Shown here piece by piece: positions 25,263 through 33,062 of a DNA stretch of 64,000 bases. The number at the start of each line of letters is the position of its first letter. Positions within the stretch are counted from its first letter, which is position 1. This stretch comes from Candidatus Planktophila lacus (GTDB taxonomy: Bacteria > Actinomycetota > Actinomycetes > Nanopelagicales > Nanopelagicaceae), in contig NZ_CP016780.1 in NCBI RefSeq assembly GCF_002288325.1, forward strand, positions 310,001-374,000, given 5' to 3'. The translations under genes and the position numbers were made by a program. The notes under the pieces are model-generated. The model searched no databases, had not been told where the DNA came from, and worked only from the letters and a program-made list of their open reading frames with translations.

Positions 25263-25293
25263 AAAACCCGCCACATAAAGTGGCGGGTTTTTT
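25261..25293. terminator. Bidirectional terminator between marR and the histone-like gene
   Basis: CCCGCCAC (25267-25274) pairs with GTGGCGGG (25280-25287) around ATAAA, flanked by A6 and T6. It is a strong terminator in both directions for the convergent genes. Confidence 0.92.
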
Positions 25294-25306
25294 ATTAAGT
25301 AATGAA

Positions 25307-25810
25307 TTACTTAGCTGCTGCCTTCTTGCGGCGGCGCTTCTTTGGAGCAGCTGCTGGAGCTGCTGCCTTCTTCTTGCGACGCTTTGGAGCTGCCTTCTTA
25401 GCTGCTGCCTTCTTGCGACGCTTTGGAGCTGCCTTCTTAGCTGCTGCCTTCTTGCGACGCTTTGGAGCTGCCTTCTTAGCTGCTGCCTTCTTGCGACGCT
25501 TTGGAGCTGCCTTCTTAGCTGCTGCCTTCTTGCGACGCTTTGGAGCTGCCTTCTTAGCTGCTGCCTTCTTGCGACGCTTTGGAGCTGCCTTCTTAGCTGC
25601 TGCCTTCTTGCGACGCTTTGGAGCTGCCTTCTTAGCTGCTGCCTTCTTGCGACGCTTTGGAGCTGCCTTCTTAGCTGCTGCCTTCTTGCGACGCTTTGGA
25701 GCTGCCTTCTTTGCTACTGCTGCCTTCTTGCGGCGCTTCTTTGGAGCTGCTGCTGGAGCTGCTGCCTTCTTGCGACGCTTCTTTGGTGCTGCTTTCTTAG
25801 CTGCGGCCAC
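25307..25810 (-). CDS. Lys/Ala/Pro-rich histone-like repeat protein
   Basis: Protein of 167 aa made almost only of Lys, Arg, Ala and Pro. It has nine units of KKAAPKRRKK type: eight identical 13-residue units (AAAKKAAPKRRKK) and one variant with AAVA, framed by PKKRRKKAAAPAAAP segments at each end. It has no folded domain and resembles the basic tails of actinobacterial HU/HupB and histone H1-like proteins, so DNA or RNA compaction is likely. The start is GTG 25810 with GGAGAAG upstream. Open frames on the opposite strand are by-products of the repeat. Confidence 0.85.
   Translation of the reverse strand: MAAAKKAAPKKRRKKAAAPAAAPKKRRKKAAVAKKAAPKRRKKAAAKKAAPKRRKKAAAKKAAPKRRKKAAAKKAAPKRRKKAAAKKAAPKRRKKAAAKKAAPKRRKKAAAKKAAPKRRKKAAAKKAAPKRRKKAAAKKAAPKRRKKKAAAPAAAPKKRRRKKAAAK
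25376..25726. repeat. 39-bp tandem repeat array inside the histone-like gene
   Basis: Nine units begin at 25376 and recur every 39 bp up to 25688; the last is a variant. Near-perfect identity at DNA level, including synonymous positions, shows recent expansion or homogenisation. Copy number may vary between strains. Confidence 0.95.
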
Positions 25811-26038
25811 GTACTTCTCCTATCGGAATGGTTCGGATCCGTCACCCAAACCTGTTCGTGGATAAGTGTGACGGAAATGTAAAAATATTGCTAGTACATA
25901 GCGCGAAAAAACGGAGTGCGTGTCGCAATTTATTTTTTTATTTTTTTGTGCATTTAAGAAAAAAATCGCCAAATGATTTACCTAAATCGCCACCGATTTT
26001 TGCGATTTTCTCCGCACTTTTGCGAAAATTGGGAAAAA
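25811..26038. other. AT-rich intergenic region upstream of the histone-like gene
   Basis: A 228-bp gap, long for this window. It contains an inverted repeat TCCGTCAC (25838-25845) / GTGACGGA (25868-25875), which would form a hairpin in the histone-gene leader. It also contains runs of T and A and repeated motifs such as AATCGCCA and TTGCGA. No gene is seen. Confidence 0.5.
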
Positions 26039-28240: not shown

Positions 28241-29905
28241 ATGAAGTTGCGAGTAGCCCTCGCCCAGGTCAACCCAACAGTTGGTGATCTGGTTGCCAAC
28301 GCTGCCTTGGTGCGCACCAACTTCAAGACCGCCCAAGATGCCGGCGCGCATATCGTCGTATTTCCTGAGATGGTTTTGACGGGATACCCAGTTGAAGATC
28401 TCGCCTTACGTCCTTCTTTTCAACTAGCCAGCCAAAGCGCCTTAACTGAATTAGCCGGTCAATTAACCGGTGGATGTGTGGCAATAGTCGGGTATTTAGA
28501 TCAAGTAAATGGCGCCCCACAAAATATGGTTGCCGTCATCAGCGATGGCAAGGTCGCAGCGCGTTATGCCAAGTGCCACCTACCTAACTACGGCGTATTC
28601 GATGAATTCCGCAACTTTGTTCCGGGCGATCAAACTTTGGTCTTGCGCATCCATGGCGCAGATATCGGAATTGCAATCTGTGAAGACCTATGGATCGATG
28701 GCGGAATTACCGCACAACTTGCTGATCGCAAACCAGGGTTAGTTATTGTTCCAAATGGTTCTCCATATGAACGCGCAAAAGATGACACGCGCTTAGCTCT
28801 GGTAACCAAGCGCGCTCGCCAAGCCAAGGCTCCATTGGTCTATGTAAATATGACCGGTGGCCAAGATGATCTGGTCTTTGATGGCGACAGCATTGTGGTT
28901 GGCGCAGATGGTGCGGTCATTGCCCGAGCACCACAATTTGAAGATGGCATCGCGGTAGTTGATATAGATGTTGCAACCAAAACTAGTTCGCCAGATGTGA
29001 TTATTTCTGAAGATGAAGTCAGCGTTGATCGCGCCCTGATTCCTGGTGTGGCTGTTCGCCTTGATGATCGCGAAGAAATTTGGAACGCGATTGTTGTTGG
29101 CTTGCGTGACTATGTAGAAAAGAACGGTTTCCGTAGCGTTGTCGTTGGTTTATCGGGCGGTATTGATTCGGCGCTAGTTGCAGCCTTGGCTGTCGATGCA
29201 CTTGGTGCCAAGCGAGTAAATGGCGTTGCGATGCCAAGTAAATACTCATCCGAACATTCAATCTCTGATGCCCAAGCTTTCGCCGATGCCACCGGTATTC
29301 ACTTCCGCACCGTGCCAATTGCGCCGATGGTTGATGCCTATATGAATAACCTGGTTTTAAAGGGCGTTGCTGAAGAAAATCTGCAGGCCCGTGTTCGCGG
29401 AACAACGCTGATGGGGATCTCAAATCAAGAAGGTCATTTAGTTTTAGCAACCGGCAATAAATCAGAGCTCGCCGTTGGTTACTCAACGCTTTATGGTGAT
29501 GCCGTGGGCGGCTTTGCCCCAATTAAAGATATTTACAAGACCGATGTCTGGGCGTTATCTCGTTGGCGCAATGAAATCGCGCGCGCCCGCGGTGAGGCCG
29601 AGCCAATTCCGGTTAACTCAATTGAAAAAGAGCCAAGTGCAGAGCTTCGCCCTGGCCAAAAAGATACTGACTCACTTCCTGATTACTTATTGCTAGATCG
29701 CGTCTTAACGGCATACGTAGATGATGATCAAGGCTCAGCGGCGTTGATTGCGGCAGGCTTTGATGAGGCTTTGGTTCGTCGCGTAATTGCGATGGTCGAT
29801 AAGGCCGAATACAAGCGCCGCCAATATCCACCTGGGCCAAAGGTTTCTAAGCGAGCGTTTGGAAAGGATCGCAGACTTCCAATGACTTCGCGCTGGGCTG
29901 AATAA
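28241..29905 (+). CDS. nadE: Glutamine-dependent NAD+ synthase
   Basis: Protein of 554 aa. The N-terminal nitrilase-type glutaminase (about 1-260) has the Glu-Lys-Cys triad in FPEMVLTGYP, YAKCHLPNYGVFDE and IAICEDLW. The C-terminal synthetase has the pyrophosphate loop VVGLSGGIDSALVAA and the ATP-site GNKSELAVGYSTLYGD. It makes NAD+ from deamido-NAD+, ATP and glutamine. The next gene is a glutamine synthetase, so the ammonia donor is made next door. Confidence 0.95.
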   Translation: MKLRVALAQVNPTVGDLVANAALVRTNFKTAQDAGAHIVVFPEMVLTGYPVEDLALRPSFQLASQSALTELAGQLTGGCVAIVGYLDQVNGAPQNMVAVISDGKVAARYAKCHLPNYGVFDEFRNFVPGDQTLVLRIHGADIGIAICEDLWIDGGITAQLADRKPGLVIVPNGSPYERAKDDTRLALVTKRARQAKAPLVYVNMTGGQDDLVFDGDSIVVGADGAVIARAPQFEDGIAVVDIDVATKTSSPDVIISEDEVSVDRALIPGVAVRLDDREEIWNAIVVGLRDYVEKNGFRSVVVGLSGGIDSALVAALAVDALGAKRVNGVAMPSKYSSEHSISDAQAFADATGIHFRTVPIAPMVDAYMNNLVLKGVAEENLQARVRGTTLMGISNQEGHLVLATGNKSELAVGYSTLYGDAVGGFAPIKDIYKTDVWALSRWRNEIARARGEAEPIPVNSIEKEPSAELRPGQKDTDSLPDYLLLDRVLTAYVDDDQGSAALIAAGFDEALVRRVIAMVDKAEYKRRQYPPGPKVSKRAFGKDRRLPMTSRWAE

Positions 29906-29912
29906 GGGCCAC

Positions 29913-29928
29913 GTAACACAGCCGTAAC
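29913..29928 (+). promoter_or_regulatory. GlnR-box-like repeat upstream of glnA
   Basis: GTAAC (29913-29917), 6 nt, GTAAC (29924-29928). The half-site pattern and 6-nt gap resemble the actinobacterial GlnR box (GTnAC-n6-GAAAC). It is 23 bp before the first glnA start, just after nadE ends. Short motif, so only a candidate. Confidence 0.4.
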
Positions 29929-29951
29929 TTTGACTTGGCAAGATCTGGGGT

Positions 29952-31277
29952 ATGACTTCCCACGATTCACATCCTGATTCACAGATGAGCAAGCAACAAG
30001 AGTTCGTGCTTCGCACTATCGAAGAACGCAATATTCGTTTTATCCGTTTGTGGTTTACCGATGTCTTGGGATATTTAAAGTCTGTTGCAATTGCACCTGC
30101 TGAGTTAGTTAACGCCTTCGAAGAAGGAATCGGTTTCGATGGTTCAGCGATTGAAGGCTTTGCCCGTGTTACCGAATCAGATATGTTGGCAAAACCTGAT
30201 CCTGCAACATTTTCGATCTTGCCATGGCGCACTGAAGCCCCAGGTGCAGCACGTATGTTCTGTGATATCACCATGCCCGATGGTTCACCTTCACATGCTG
30301 ATCCACGCAACGTACTTCGTCGCACTTTAAACAAGGCAGCCCAAATGGGTTACACCTGTTACACACATCCCGAAATTGAATTCTTCCTGTTTAAAAATTC
30401 ACCAGTAAAAGGCGAACAACCAGTACCGGTTGATCAAGGTGGATATTTCGATCACACACCAGCTGTTGTGGGACATGACTTCCGTCGCCAAGCGATCACT
30501 ATGTTGGAGGCGATGGGAATCTCTGTCGAATTTAGCCACCATGAAGGCGCGCCAGGCCAACAGGAGATCGATCTACGTTATGCCGATGCTTTAAGCACCG
30601 CGGATAACATCATGACTTTCCGCCACGTGATTAAAGAAGTTGCACTTGAACAAGGTTTCTACGCATCTTTTATGCCTAAGCCATTTACCGAGCATCCAGG
30701 CAGCGGAATGCACACCCACGTCTCGCTCTTTGAAGGCGAGAAGAATGCTTTCTACGATGCATCAGCCGAATTTAATTTATCTAAAGTTGCCCGCTCATTT
30801 ATCGCCGGCATCTTGAAGCATTCATCTGAAATCACTGCAGTAACAAATCAATGGGTGAACTCATATAAGCGCCTGCAAGGTGGGGGAGAAGCGCCTTCAC
30901 TGATTTCTTGGGGACATAACGATCGCAGCTCGCTAGTGCGTATCCCGATGTATAAACCAAATAAAGAGAATTCAACTCGTATCGAATTTCGTTCTCCTGA
31001 TTCTGCATGCAATCCATATCTGGCATACGCGGTGATGTTGGCTGCTGGCTTAAAGGGAATAGAAGAGAAGTACGAGCTGGTCGATAACGCCAACCCCGAA
31101 TCACTGCCGGCTAACTTAAATGAAGCAATTGGGGTTATGGAGAAGAGCGCACTGGTTCGTGAGACTTTGGGCGAGCATGTCTTTGAATATGTACTGCGCA
31201 ATAAGCGCGCCGAATGGCAGGACTATCGCCGCCAGGTCAGCGCTTACGAGTTAGACCGTTATTTACCTGTCCTTTAA
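29952..31277 (+). CDS. glnA2: Type I glutamine synthetase, GlnA2-like
   Basis: Protein of 441 aa, full GS catalytic domain: VLGYLKSVAIAPAEL, GFDGSAIEGFARV, PEIEFFLF, EFSHHEGAPGQQEIDLRYADAL, GSGMHTHVSLF, and RVPMYKPN with RIEFRSPDSACNPYLAY. It joins ammonia to glutamate. The sequence follows mycobacterial GlnA2 (EFVLRTIEERNIRFIRLWFTDVLG) and lacks the NLYDLPP motif with the adenylylated tyrosine of GlnA1. By homology the start could be ATG 29985 (MSKQQEF), 11 codons in; neither start has a clear ribosome site. The next gene is a heliorhodopsin, a reported GS-binding protein in actinobacteria. Confidence 0.92.
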   Translation: MTSHDSHPDSQMSKQQEFVLRTIEERNIRFIRLWFTDVLGYLKSVAIAPAELVNAFEEGIGFDGSAIEGFARVTESDMLAKPDPATFSILPWRTEAPGAARMFCDITMPDGSPSHADPRNVLRRTLNKAAQMGYTCYTHPEIEFFLFKNSPVKGEQPVPVDQGGYFDHTPAVVGHDFRRQAITMLEAMGISVEFSHHEGAPGQQEIDLRYADALSTADNIMTFRHVIKEVALEQGFYASFMPKPFTEHPGSGMHTHVSLFEGEKNAFYDASAEFNLSKVARSFIAGILKHSSEITAVTNQWVNSYKRLQGGGEAPSLISWGHNDRSSLVRIPMYKPNKENSTRIEFRSPDSACNPYLAYAVMLAAGLKGIEEKYELVDNANPESLPANLNEAIGVMEKSALVRETLGEHVFEYVLRNKRAEWQDYRRQVSAYELDRYLPVL

Positions 31278-31301
31278 CGCCTAATTAGCCCTAAGGGCTG
31301 T

Positions 31302-31307
31302 TACTTT
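31302..31307 (+). promoter_or_regulatory. Leaderless -10 element for heliorhodopsin
   Basis: TACTTT, 6 nt, then ATG 31314. A small hairpin AGCCC/GGGCT (31287-31299) lies just upstream and may partly end glnA2 transcription, so the rhodopsin could be read both alone and with glnA2. Confidence 0.45.
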
Positions 31308-31313
31308 ATTGGC

Positions 31314-32078
31314 ATGGCTAAAGAGATAACAGATAACGGTTTACGTCGCATCAATTTATTTGCTGGCGTTCTTCACCTCGCGCAGATGGTGGCAGTACTT
31401 GCTCTCGCATCAGATTTCACGCTTCCAATCACTGCGCGATACATGTCTGGTCCACCTGGAAGCACCTACGGAGACCTAATCGTCTTATGGGATGCACCAC
31501 TTGCAATTGGTGTTGCAGTGTTCTTGGGATTGTCTGCTCTCGCCCACTTTATTGTCATTAGCCCGAAGTTCTTTCCGCGGTATATAGCAGGACTTGCAGC
31601 GCACCGAAACTTCTTCCGTTGGGTTGAATATTCAATTAGCTCTTCAGTAATGATCGTTCTGATCGCACAAGTAACTGGAATTTCAGAGGTAACAGCGCTT
31701 ATCTCTATCTTCGGTGTTAACGCTTCGATGATTCTCTTTGGTTGGTTGCAAGAGAAATATGAAGAGCCTGGCAGCGGTGGATGGGTTCCATTTATCTTCG
31801 GTTGCATCACCGGCATCGTTCCTTGGCTAGCACTCGTCTTCTATGTCTTTGCTATCGGTGGGGCTGGCGAGAATAAGGCGCCAACCTTCGTCTACTTCAT
31901 CGTCTTCACCATCTTCGTTCTATTCAACTCCTTCGCACTTGTTCAATTTGTTCAATATAAGAAGATCGGCAAATGGTCGGATTATCTTCGCGGAGAGCGC
32001 ACCTACATCACGCTTTCACTAGTTGCTAAATCACTCCTTGCGTGGCAGATCTTCGCCAATACACTTATCCCCGTATAG
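31314..32078 (+). CDS. Heliorhodopsin
   Basis: Retinal protein of 254 aa with seven helices. The retinal lysine is K239 in SLVAKSLLAWQIFANTL and the Schiff-base counterion is E105 in RWVEYSISSSVMIV, both family signatures. H21 and H78 match the conserved helix histidines. Heliorhodopsins are inverted relative to type 1 rhodopsins (N-terminus inside), have slow photocycles and no shown ion pumping in most members. The short gap after glnA2 (36 bp) is notable because an actinobacterial heliorhodopsin has been reported to bind and modulate glutamine synthetase. No retinal synthesis gene is seen in this window. Confidence 0.95.
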   Translation: MAKEITDNGLRRINLFAGVLHLAQMVAVLALASDFTLPITARYMSGPPGSTYGDLIVLWDAPLAIGVAVFLGLSALAHFIVISPKFFPRYIAGLAAHRNFFRWVEYSISSSVMIVLIAQVTGISEVTALISIFGVNASMILFGWLQEKYEEPGSGGWVPFIFGCITGIVPWLALVFYVFAIGGAGENKAPTFVYFIVFTIFVLFNSFALVQFVQYKKIGKWSDYLRGERTYITLSLVAKSLLAWQIFANTLIPV

Positions 32079-32108
32079 AGATTTAATTAAAATTTTATTG
32101 GAGGATAC

Positions 32109-33062
32109 GTGTCACTACGTTGGGGTTATCTAGGAGCAGGTGGAATTGCTGACATCATCGCGACAGATTTTGGCCATGCTGGTTTAAAGATCCAAGCAGT
32201 TGCAACGCGCGATATGGCGCGCACCAACGCCTTCGCCGATAAGTTCAATATCCCAAACCGCCATCCAGATTACGCATCTCTGGTTGCAGATCCTGAAGTC
32301 GATGTTATTTATATTTCTACCGTTCAGACCTTGCACCGCGATCATGCGCTCTTAGCAATCGAAGCCGGCAAGCATGTCTTGCTAGAAAAACCTTTCACCA
32401 TGAACGCTGCAGATGCTCATGAAATCTACGCAGCAGCTAAGCGCAAAAATGTCTTTGTCATGGAGGCGATGTGGACTCGTTTCTTGCCAACTATGACTGC
32501 AGTATTTGCCGCGATTAACGCAGGAGAAATTGGCACACCACACTTTGTCTATGCCGATCACAGCCAGTATCTGCCAATCGAAAGAGCACCGCGTCTTTGG
32601 AATCGCGAACAAGGTGGCGGTGCGCATTACGATCTCGGAATTTATCCAATGCATATGGCAATTCGCACCTTAGGTTTCCCAGATTCAGTTAGCGGAAAAT
32701 CGATCATGACTGACACCGGGGTTGACTCTGCAACGGCTGCTGTATTGCAATACAACAACGGCAGCCTGGCGCTGATTAACTCTTGCATGACAATGGCAGG
32801 CACACTCACCGCGGCAATTCACGGCGATAAAGGTCGCATTGAAATTGATGGTTGGTTCTTCGAACAGACCACATTTAGCATCTTCGATAATAAGCATCAG
32901 CTAGTGCGCACTTATGAAGAGAAAATTGCGGGACGCGGAATGCAATATCAAGCAATTCACGTTGAAGAGTGCATCGCTAAAGGGCTAACTGAAAGTCCAA
33001 TTCTTAGCCTTGCTGAAACTGTAAAAATTATGGAAGTTATGGAGCAGGTTCACGTCTTTTAA
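32109..33062 (+). CDS. Gfo/Idh/MocA family oxidoreductase
   Basis: Protein of 317 aa. The N-terminal Rossmann fold is WGYLGAGGIADIIATDF; the EKPFTMNAADA motif marks the catalytic lysine region, and GGAHYDLGIYPMHMA is the dimer/active-site segment. It is nearest to trans-1,2-dihydrobenzene-diol/D-xylose dehydrogenase-like members, so a sugar or cyclic polyol is the likely substrate. The start is GTG 32109 with a strong GGAGG. It follows the heliorhodopsin by 30 bp and may share its transcript, though no functional link is known. Confidence 0.85.
   Translation: MSLRWGYLGAGGIADIIATDFGHAGLKIQAVATRDMARTNAFADKFNIPNRHPDYASLVADPEVDVIYISTVQTLHRDHALLAIEAGKHVLLEKPFTMNAADAHEIYAAAKRKNVFVMEAMWTRFLPTMTAVFAAINAGEIGTPHFVYADHSQYLPIERAPRLWNREQGGGAHYDLGIYPMHMAIRTLGFPDSVSGKSIMTDTGVDSATAAVLQYNNGSLALINSCMTMAGTLTAAIHGDKGRIEIDGWFFEQTTFSIFDNKHQLVRTYEEKIAGRGMQYQAIHVEECIAKGLTESPILSLAETVKIMEVMEQVHVF

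Follow-up and report, generated by a model that had tools for sequence, protein, structure and literature searches.

The window analysed here is a stretch of 64,000 nucleotides from the freshwater lake bacterium Candidatus Planktophila lacus (contig NZ_CP016780.1, positions 310,001 to 374,000), whose genome is a single contig of 1,384,812 bases. On its + strand, a nadE gene (28241–29905; NCBIfam NF010588, 678.7 bits against a cut-off of 479) encodes an NAD+ synthase with an N-terminal amidase-like part, which by family would be a glutamine user. It is followed by an intact open reading frame for a 441-residue ligase of the glutamine synthetase (GS) family (29952–31277) and, after a gap of 36 nt (31278–31313), by an intact heliorhodopsin (HeR) gene for 254 residues (31314–32078). 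The original prediction of a complete HeR directly 3′ of GS on the same strand, with nadE in the neighbourhood, thus describes the locus correctly. Between nadE and the ligase gene lie a GlnR-type box, GTAAC-n6-GTAAC (29913–29928), and the −10-like hexamer CAAGAT (29939–29944), which starts 10 nt after the box and ends 7 nt 5′ of the ATG; a second −10 element, TACTTT (31302–31307), is located in the gap, 6 nt 5′ of the HeR start. In a sub-clade that includes P. lacus, the next gene 3′ of HeR encodes a Gfo/Idh/MocA-type oxidoreductase (32109–33062), a name taken from PMC9529153, as its product reaches no NCBIfam cut-off. The source genome carries two GS-family genes and also encodes a type-1 rhodopsin. 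In addition, it has a BCD-family oxygenase gene (hit at G000:C1:382546), which could be a source of retinal.

The HeR assignment is firm. The protein scores 326.6 bits against NCBIfam NF038020 (cut-off 100) and 314.3 against Pfam PF18761 (cut-off 26.7), and H21, H78, E105 and K239 are all found where they had been predicted. The Schiff-base lysine K239 and the counterion E105 are both kept in 34 of 34 HeR sequences encoded next to GS, and the solved HeR structures nearest by sequence are 9ljj, 6su3 (48C12) and 6uh3. The HeR protein of P. lacus MMS-21-148 is 100% identical to that of the window.

The pairing of HeR with GS is already in print and is not new. The reported actinobacterial example, to which the original prediction had referred, is an orthologue of the present pair: strain IMCC26103 has the same gene order, panB/nadE/GS/HeR/Gfo/leuA, with the same spacing (locus L040), and its HeR is identical to that of P. 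lacus at 234 of 254 positions (92%) and its GS at 96%. Moreover, Cho et al. 2022 (PMC9529153) name the P. lacus HeR in their GS group, one mark of which is a GS gene directly upstream, here at 36 nt. The IMCC26103 HeR (AbHeR) does not pump, has a cytoplasmic N-terminus and binds its GS (AbGS) with a Kd of 6.06 µM in vesicles and 100 µM in detergent, and no binding is seen with AbHeR K216Q (PMC9529153). The kcat/Km of AbGS rises from 5.4 for the enzyme alone to 8.0 with HeR in the dark and 12.2 with HeR in the light (PMC9529153). Its kcat of ~0.15 per s and Km of 27 mM (PMC9529153) are poor for a GS. With glutamate, AbGS rescues a glnA mutant of E. coli slowly and in part; E. coli with both AbHeR and AbGS has a growth-decay half-life that is 1.58-fold longer in light, and this light difference aside, it grows no better than the empty-vector strain (PMC9529153). 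The light effect in E. coli is a partial one.

Other published data place the two genes in one transcript. In freshwater Actinobacteria, GS, NAD synthetase and HeR were found on common transcripts (Bulzu et al. 2021, PMC8612252). The class 1 RNA of that study, assigned to Ca. Planktophila or Ca. Nanopelagicus, unites the three genes as here, as metatranscript fragments, and the passages on the co-transcripts analyse neither promoters nor regulators. In a paper of 2024, HeRs are divided by their neighbours into ten groups, among them GS, NAD synthetase and photolyase (PMC11109279). Cho et al. predicted one promoter, before nadE, whereas in P. lacus a conserved −10-like element of the leaderless kind precedes each of nadE, GS and HeR. 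The main text of PMC9529153 does not use the words GlnR, GlnA2, polyamine or leaderless, and in the literature searched, no paper joins heliorhodopsin with GlnR, Nanopelagicales with GlnR, or leaderless with Planktophila.

The GlnR-type box is a constant feature of the GS promoter. The pattern [GT]TAACA[CT]-n4-G[TA]AA[CT] precedes GS in all 69 genus loci whose upstream DNA is long enough to read; HeR fills the slot after GS in 30 of them and is absent from it in 39. Exactly 10 nt after the box, each of the 69 has a NANNNT hexamer (0.07 expected from shuffling), with an ATG 6–7 nt further on. Measured from the assumed start codon, which is not the right one for every relative, TANNNT is found in 0 of 59 GS loci and NANNNT in 32, and by pattern the GS promoter is weaker than that of HeR. 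A like box is located before glnA1 in all 19 genomes that could be read, out of 20 fetched, and, in the source genome, before amt (TIGR00836, 451.9 bits; cut-off 343.3). The box agrees with published GlnR boxes (PMC10704036, PMC3662644), for which the consensus t/gTAAC-n6-G.AAC is given (PMC10704036). A GlnR is encoded as well: its best PDB matches are 8hih (E 1e-85) and 8hig (6e-84), both named as transcriptional or OmpR-family regulators, and it matches 4o1h, named GlnR, with E 2e-26. Hence, both marks of membership in the GlnR regulon, a box at the promoter and a GlnR gene in the genome, are present. A loose form of the pattern is not enriched genome-wide (41 matches versus 38 in a reversed control). 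When 30 of the 41 were viewed in context, seven were intergenic before a gene: those of GS, glnA1 and amt and four others before genes with no evident nitrogen role. The tight form KTNACAYNNNYGTAAC fits 3 of the 41 sites by eye, GS, glnA1 and amt, a descriptive count since the form was derived from these three sites. Collectively, these data suggest that GlnR probably acts on the GS, glnA1 and amt boxes. Of the proposal that GlnR-type control could be added to the locus, the part concerning GS is supported; the box is an element of the GS promoter, whether or not HeR follows.

HeR has a different upstream signature. TANNNT occurs 6–7 nt before the HeR ATG in 37 of 37 slot loci (shuffled sequences give ~0.05 per locus), and none of the 37 carries a Shine-Dalgarno (SD)-like motif before HeR. 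The same arrangement precedes nadE (59/59) and recO (53/53) in the genus loci read, and it is rare or absent before panB (0/59), uppS (0/51), Gfo (1/13) and leuA (8/65), where SD-like motifs are found instead (58/59, 35/51, 12/13 and 56/65, respectively). The split between leaderless and SD-led genes is not clean for every gene; an MFS gene in these loci has TANNNT in 18 of 30. Of 30 HeRs outside the slot, 16 have TANNNT and 28 have NANNNT. HeR thus most likely has a predicted leaderless promoter of its own, as had been proposed. The published co-transcripts imply that read-through into HeR also occurs. A single operon may hold in the form of such read-through, but its promoter would not be the sole one. 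The −10-only leaderless pattern with its comparative support was used in place of a two-hexamer sigma-70 scan, which over 29800–32300 returned no + strand promoter and one − strand hit (3.5 expected). The weak hairpin predicted in the gap (31286–31300) does not hold up: its z score is 0.15, 104 of 200 shuffled sequences fold at least as well, and 29800–32300 contains three terminator-like sites against 2.8 expected. An attenuator or terminator at this position is rejected, as the fold is at chance level.

How often HeR is found beside GS was counted in 101 genomes of the genus, 32 of them good. A HeR match is present in 72 of the 101 (28 of the 32 good genomes) and a GS-family match in at least 100. 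HeR occupies the GS slot on the same strand in 37 of the 72 HeR-bearing genomes (36 plus G061) and lies elsewhere in 26, ~550 kb from GS in one complete genome (G015); its placement is undecided in the remaining nine, with no GS of this lineage among the matches listed. The fetched GS loci of 24 of these 26 genomes run from GS to leuA with HeR absent (G070 and G096, where the GS genes are broken, were left out). The order nadE-GS-leuA-recO-uppS is preserved in loci without HeR, and in G082, whose GS is 96% identical, Gfo directly follows GS. Where HeR is in the slot, it lies within 64 nt of GS by alignment coordinates in 33 of 37 loci and at 400–976 nt in the other four. In a named collection in which several contigs end early, a GS of this lineage is in the flank of 29 of 79 HeR loci and, again with several contigs ending early, in that of 0 of the 45 loci whose HeR is less than 70% identical. 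The count of pairing in relatives thus gives a divided answer: 37 of the 72 HeR-bearing genomes show it, and with HeR elsewhere in 26 the trait is polymorphic and the pairing is not obligatory within the genus.

Slot occupancy clusters on both trees, as is expected from the relatedness of the rows: the HeR tree (68 rows) requires 5 changes where shuffling gives a mean of 23.0, and a four-gene locus tree (74 rows) requires 8 where it gives 24.9. On these trees, gain is indistinguishable from loss. The interval itself varies. GS-leuA intervals without HeR are at least 400 nt long in 11 of 36, one of which holds a Gfo gene, and some loci have stretches of at least 500 nt between HeR and leuA. HeRs outside the slot keep varied company: of 33 such HeRs, 10 have a peptidase S51 within three genes, 8 a protein that matches MauE below the cut-off and 4 a photolyase-related protein, as judged from profile searches with one representative per cluster. 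Upstream, cysK and cysE sit between nadE and GS in a large clade, as checked in one locus (L187). In G031, a catalase/peroxidase gene (TIGR00198; L125, 1695–3872) is found there on the opposite strand, and in G046 the GS gene appears as two overlapping hits, suggesting a frameshift in the gene or in the assembly (L130).

Of the charged residues named in PMC9529153, those checked in the window HeR (K3, E147, K148, E150, E151, K216, K217, K220, D223, R226 and E228) are all present. K216, K217 and K220 are in the third intracellular loop. They are lysine in 33, 33 and 33 of the 34 GS-adjacent sequences, respectively. For 35 rows labelled as not adjacent, which take in G061 (in fact adjacent) and G008 (a broken HeR gene), the counts are 32, 29 and 34, and for 46 distant HeRs they are 40, 28 and 35. 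The three lysines are thus family-wide and not diagnostic, and as they are common across HeRs, finding them conserved does not speak for a GS-specific surface. A GS-specific interface read from lysine conservation is rejected accordingly, the lysines being about as conserved in HeRs that are not beside GS. Position 151 is glutamate in 18 of 34 adjacent versus 0 of 35 other rows and in 20 of 46 distant HeRs, and it tracks clades. The HeR gene of G008 is broken near its 3′ end, with two pieces in different frames (L147).

Which reaction the ligase catalyses is a separate matter. It passes the type I GlnA model TIGR00653 barely (436.2 versus a cut-off of 429.15) and has neither canonical active-site residue of that type: in the alignment, the equivalent of Ser53 is alanine and that of Asn264 proline. 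Proline at 264 is found in all 72 readable genus rows (76 examined). At both positions, the GlnA1 of the source genome has the canonical residue. Among 15 other actinobacterial orthologues, panB and/or nadE is in the fetched stretch in 14; residue 264 is proline in 13 and tryptophan in two, and residue 53 is alanine in 12 and serine in three. The panB/nadE context and Pro/Trp at 264 place the enzyme in the actinobacterial GlnA2 lineage, in keeping with its designation as GlnA2-type in the original prediction; its fit to the named GlnA2 proteins is by description only. The GlnA2 name draws on the actinobacterial gene order panB-nadE-glnA2 and on the residues described for S. coelicolor GlnA2 (PMC8998196).

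The segment that would carry Tyr/Trp397 is a further difference. The adenylylation loop is deleted to a short segment in 74 of 76 genus rows (two were unreadable), and the 15 other actinobacterial orthologues retain it. GlnE (PF03710) has no match in the source genome and is over the cut-off in none of the 101 genomes of the genus (32 of which are good); G092 gives one weak match below it. In these searches, 3 of 14 controls were positive. With neither the Tyr397 loop nor GlnE found, the enzyme does not fit a type I-beta GS under GlnE control. The adenylation sites are called conserved in the GS group of Cho et al. (PMC9529153), a statement that the Planktophila alignment does not support. The source genome's GlnA1 keeps the loop tyrosine, though no GlnE is over the cut-off in the 101 genus genomes. 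Two known systems differ in the same respect: S. coelicolor GlnA2 (SCO2241) retains W397 (PMC8998196), and M. smegmatis has glnE beside glnA1 and glnA2 (PMC3662644), whereas in Planktophila the loop is missing and GlnE was not found.

Taken together, these results suggest that HeR is a photosensor encoded beside its probable target, the GlnA2-type ligase, with transcription split between GlnR and a HeR promoter, a reading to which we assign a probability of about one half. In this model, HeR loaded with retinal would bind the ligase on the cytoplasmic side and make it more active, more so in light. Under nitrogen shortage, GlnR would switch the ligase gene together with glnA1 and amt. HeR would be transcribed from its own leaderless promoter, possibly with read-through from GS. 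The same binding presumably takes place in the P. lacus strain, by analogy with IMCC26103, and the ligase product would matter for nitrogen supply. The original prediction that light may adjust nitrogen assimilation survives in its first half: a light-GS link is plausible by orthology, to which adjacency and lysine conservation add little. As the ligase is without the two canonical active-site residues, the words "nitrogen assimilation" are not secure.

This last point leads to a tentative alternative, less probable than the model above, in which the target enzyme, like S. coelicolor GlnA2, would make gamma-glutamyl amines (from polyamines), and what light adjusts through HeR would be the use of amines or polyamines, not ammonium assimilation. 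S. coelicolor GlnA2, by description also without both Ser53 and Asn264, is a gamma-glutamylpolyamine synthetase (PMC8998196), and the residues and panB/nadE context of the orthologues, next to a canonical GlnA1 in the source genome, fit such a role. The low GS activity of AbGS points the same way, and Cho et al. allow that AbGS might catalyse another reaction (PMC9529153). However, AbGS did give the E. coli glnA mutant its slow, partial growth with glutamate, and the ligase passes the GlnA cut-off but scores 288.5 bits against the gamma-glutamylputrescine synthetase model NF045547 (cut-off 650). The GlnR-type box shared with glnA1 and amt also argues for a GS role, as do the control of both M. 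smegmatis glnA1 and glnA2 (MSMEG4294) by GlnR (PMC3662644) and the description of mycobacterial glnA2 as a GS gene in a review (PMC10704036). The S. coelicolor GlnA2 promoter itself has a GlnR-type gTnAc motif, which GlnR binds at higher amounts and better if acetylated; older gel shifts found no binding (PMC8998196). An extended form of this idea appears doubtful: the GlnA2-type ligase, lacking the adenylylation loop in a genus where no GlnE is detected, would be under post-translational control by HeR, its real reaction would be amine or polyamine gamma-glutamylation, and light would gate organic nitrogen use while GlnR sets the amount of enzyme.

That the genes are adjacent with no physical or functional link, HeR being autonomous in some lineages in a GS-leuA interval permissive for gene gain, is unlikely: the HeR promoter in 37 of 37 slot loci, the 26 genomes with HeR elsewhere, the long intervals and the lysines that are not GS-specific are in its favor, but the binding and activity measured with the IMCC26103 proteins (PMC9529153), the co-transcripts (PMC8612252), the spacing of at most 64 nt in 33 of 37 loci and the clustering of slot occupancy on both trees stand against it.

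For the photosensor model, the added comparative facts (the GlnR-type box, the private HeR promoter, the family-wide lysines and the unsettled ligase substrate) shift the published picture. What HeRs do is still under debate, and the pair with GS is one of a small number in which the partner has been measured. The present comparison illustrates the limits of adjacency and loop conservation as proof, and the natural loci with and without HeR serve as controls. It also points to a candidate substrate class and to a transcriptional control, through the GlnR-type box and the private HeR promoter, that are absent from the published model.

Two minor observations concern other genes. Adjoining glnR in the source genome is a gene, cut by the end of the fetched locus (L255, 977–1444; G000), that matches mycothiol synthase MshD over the C-terminal portion of that enzyme, with 160.4 bits (cut-off 163.1). 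In the window, 25280–25882 contains open reading frames that overlap on both strands and are built from near-identical short repeats. A Pfam search with the product of the − strand frame (25307–25810) gave no match; this lysine/alanine-rich protein consists of KKAAPKRRKKAAA units and resembles histone H1 by look only.
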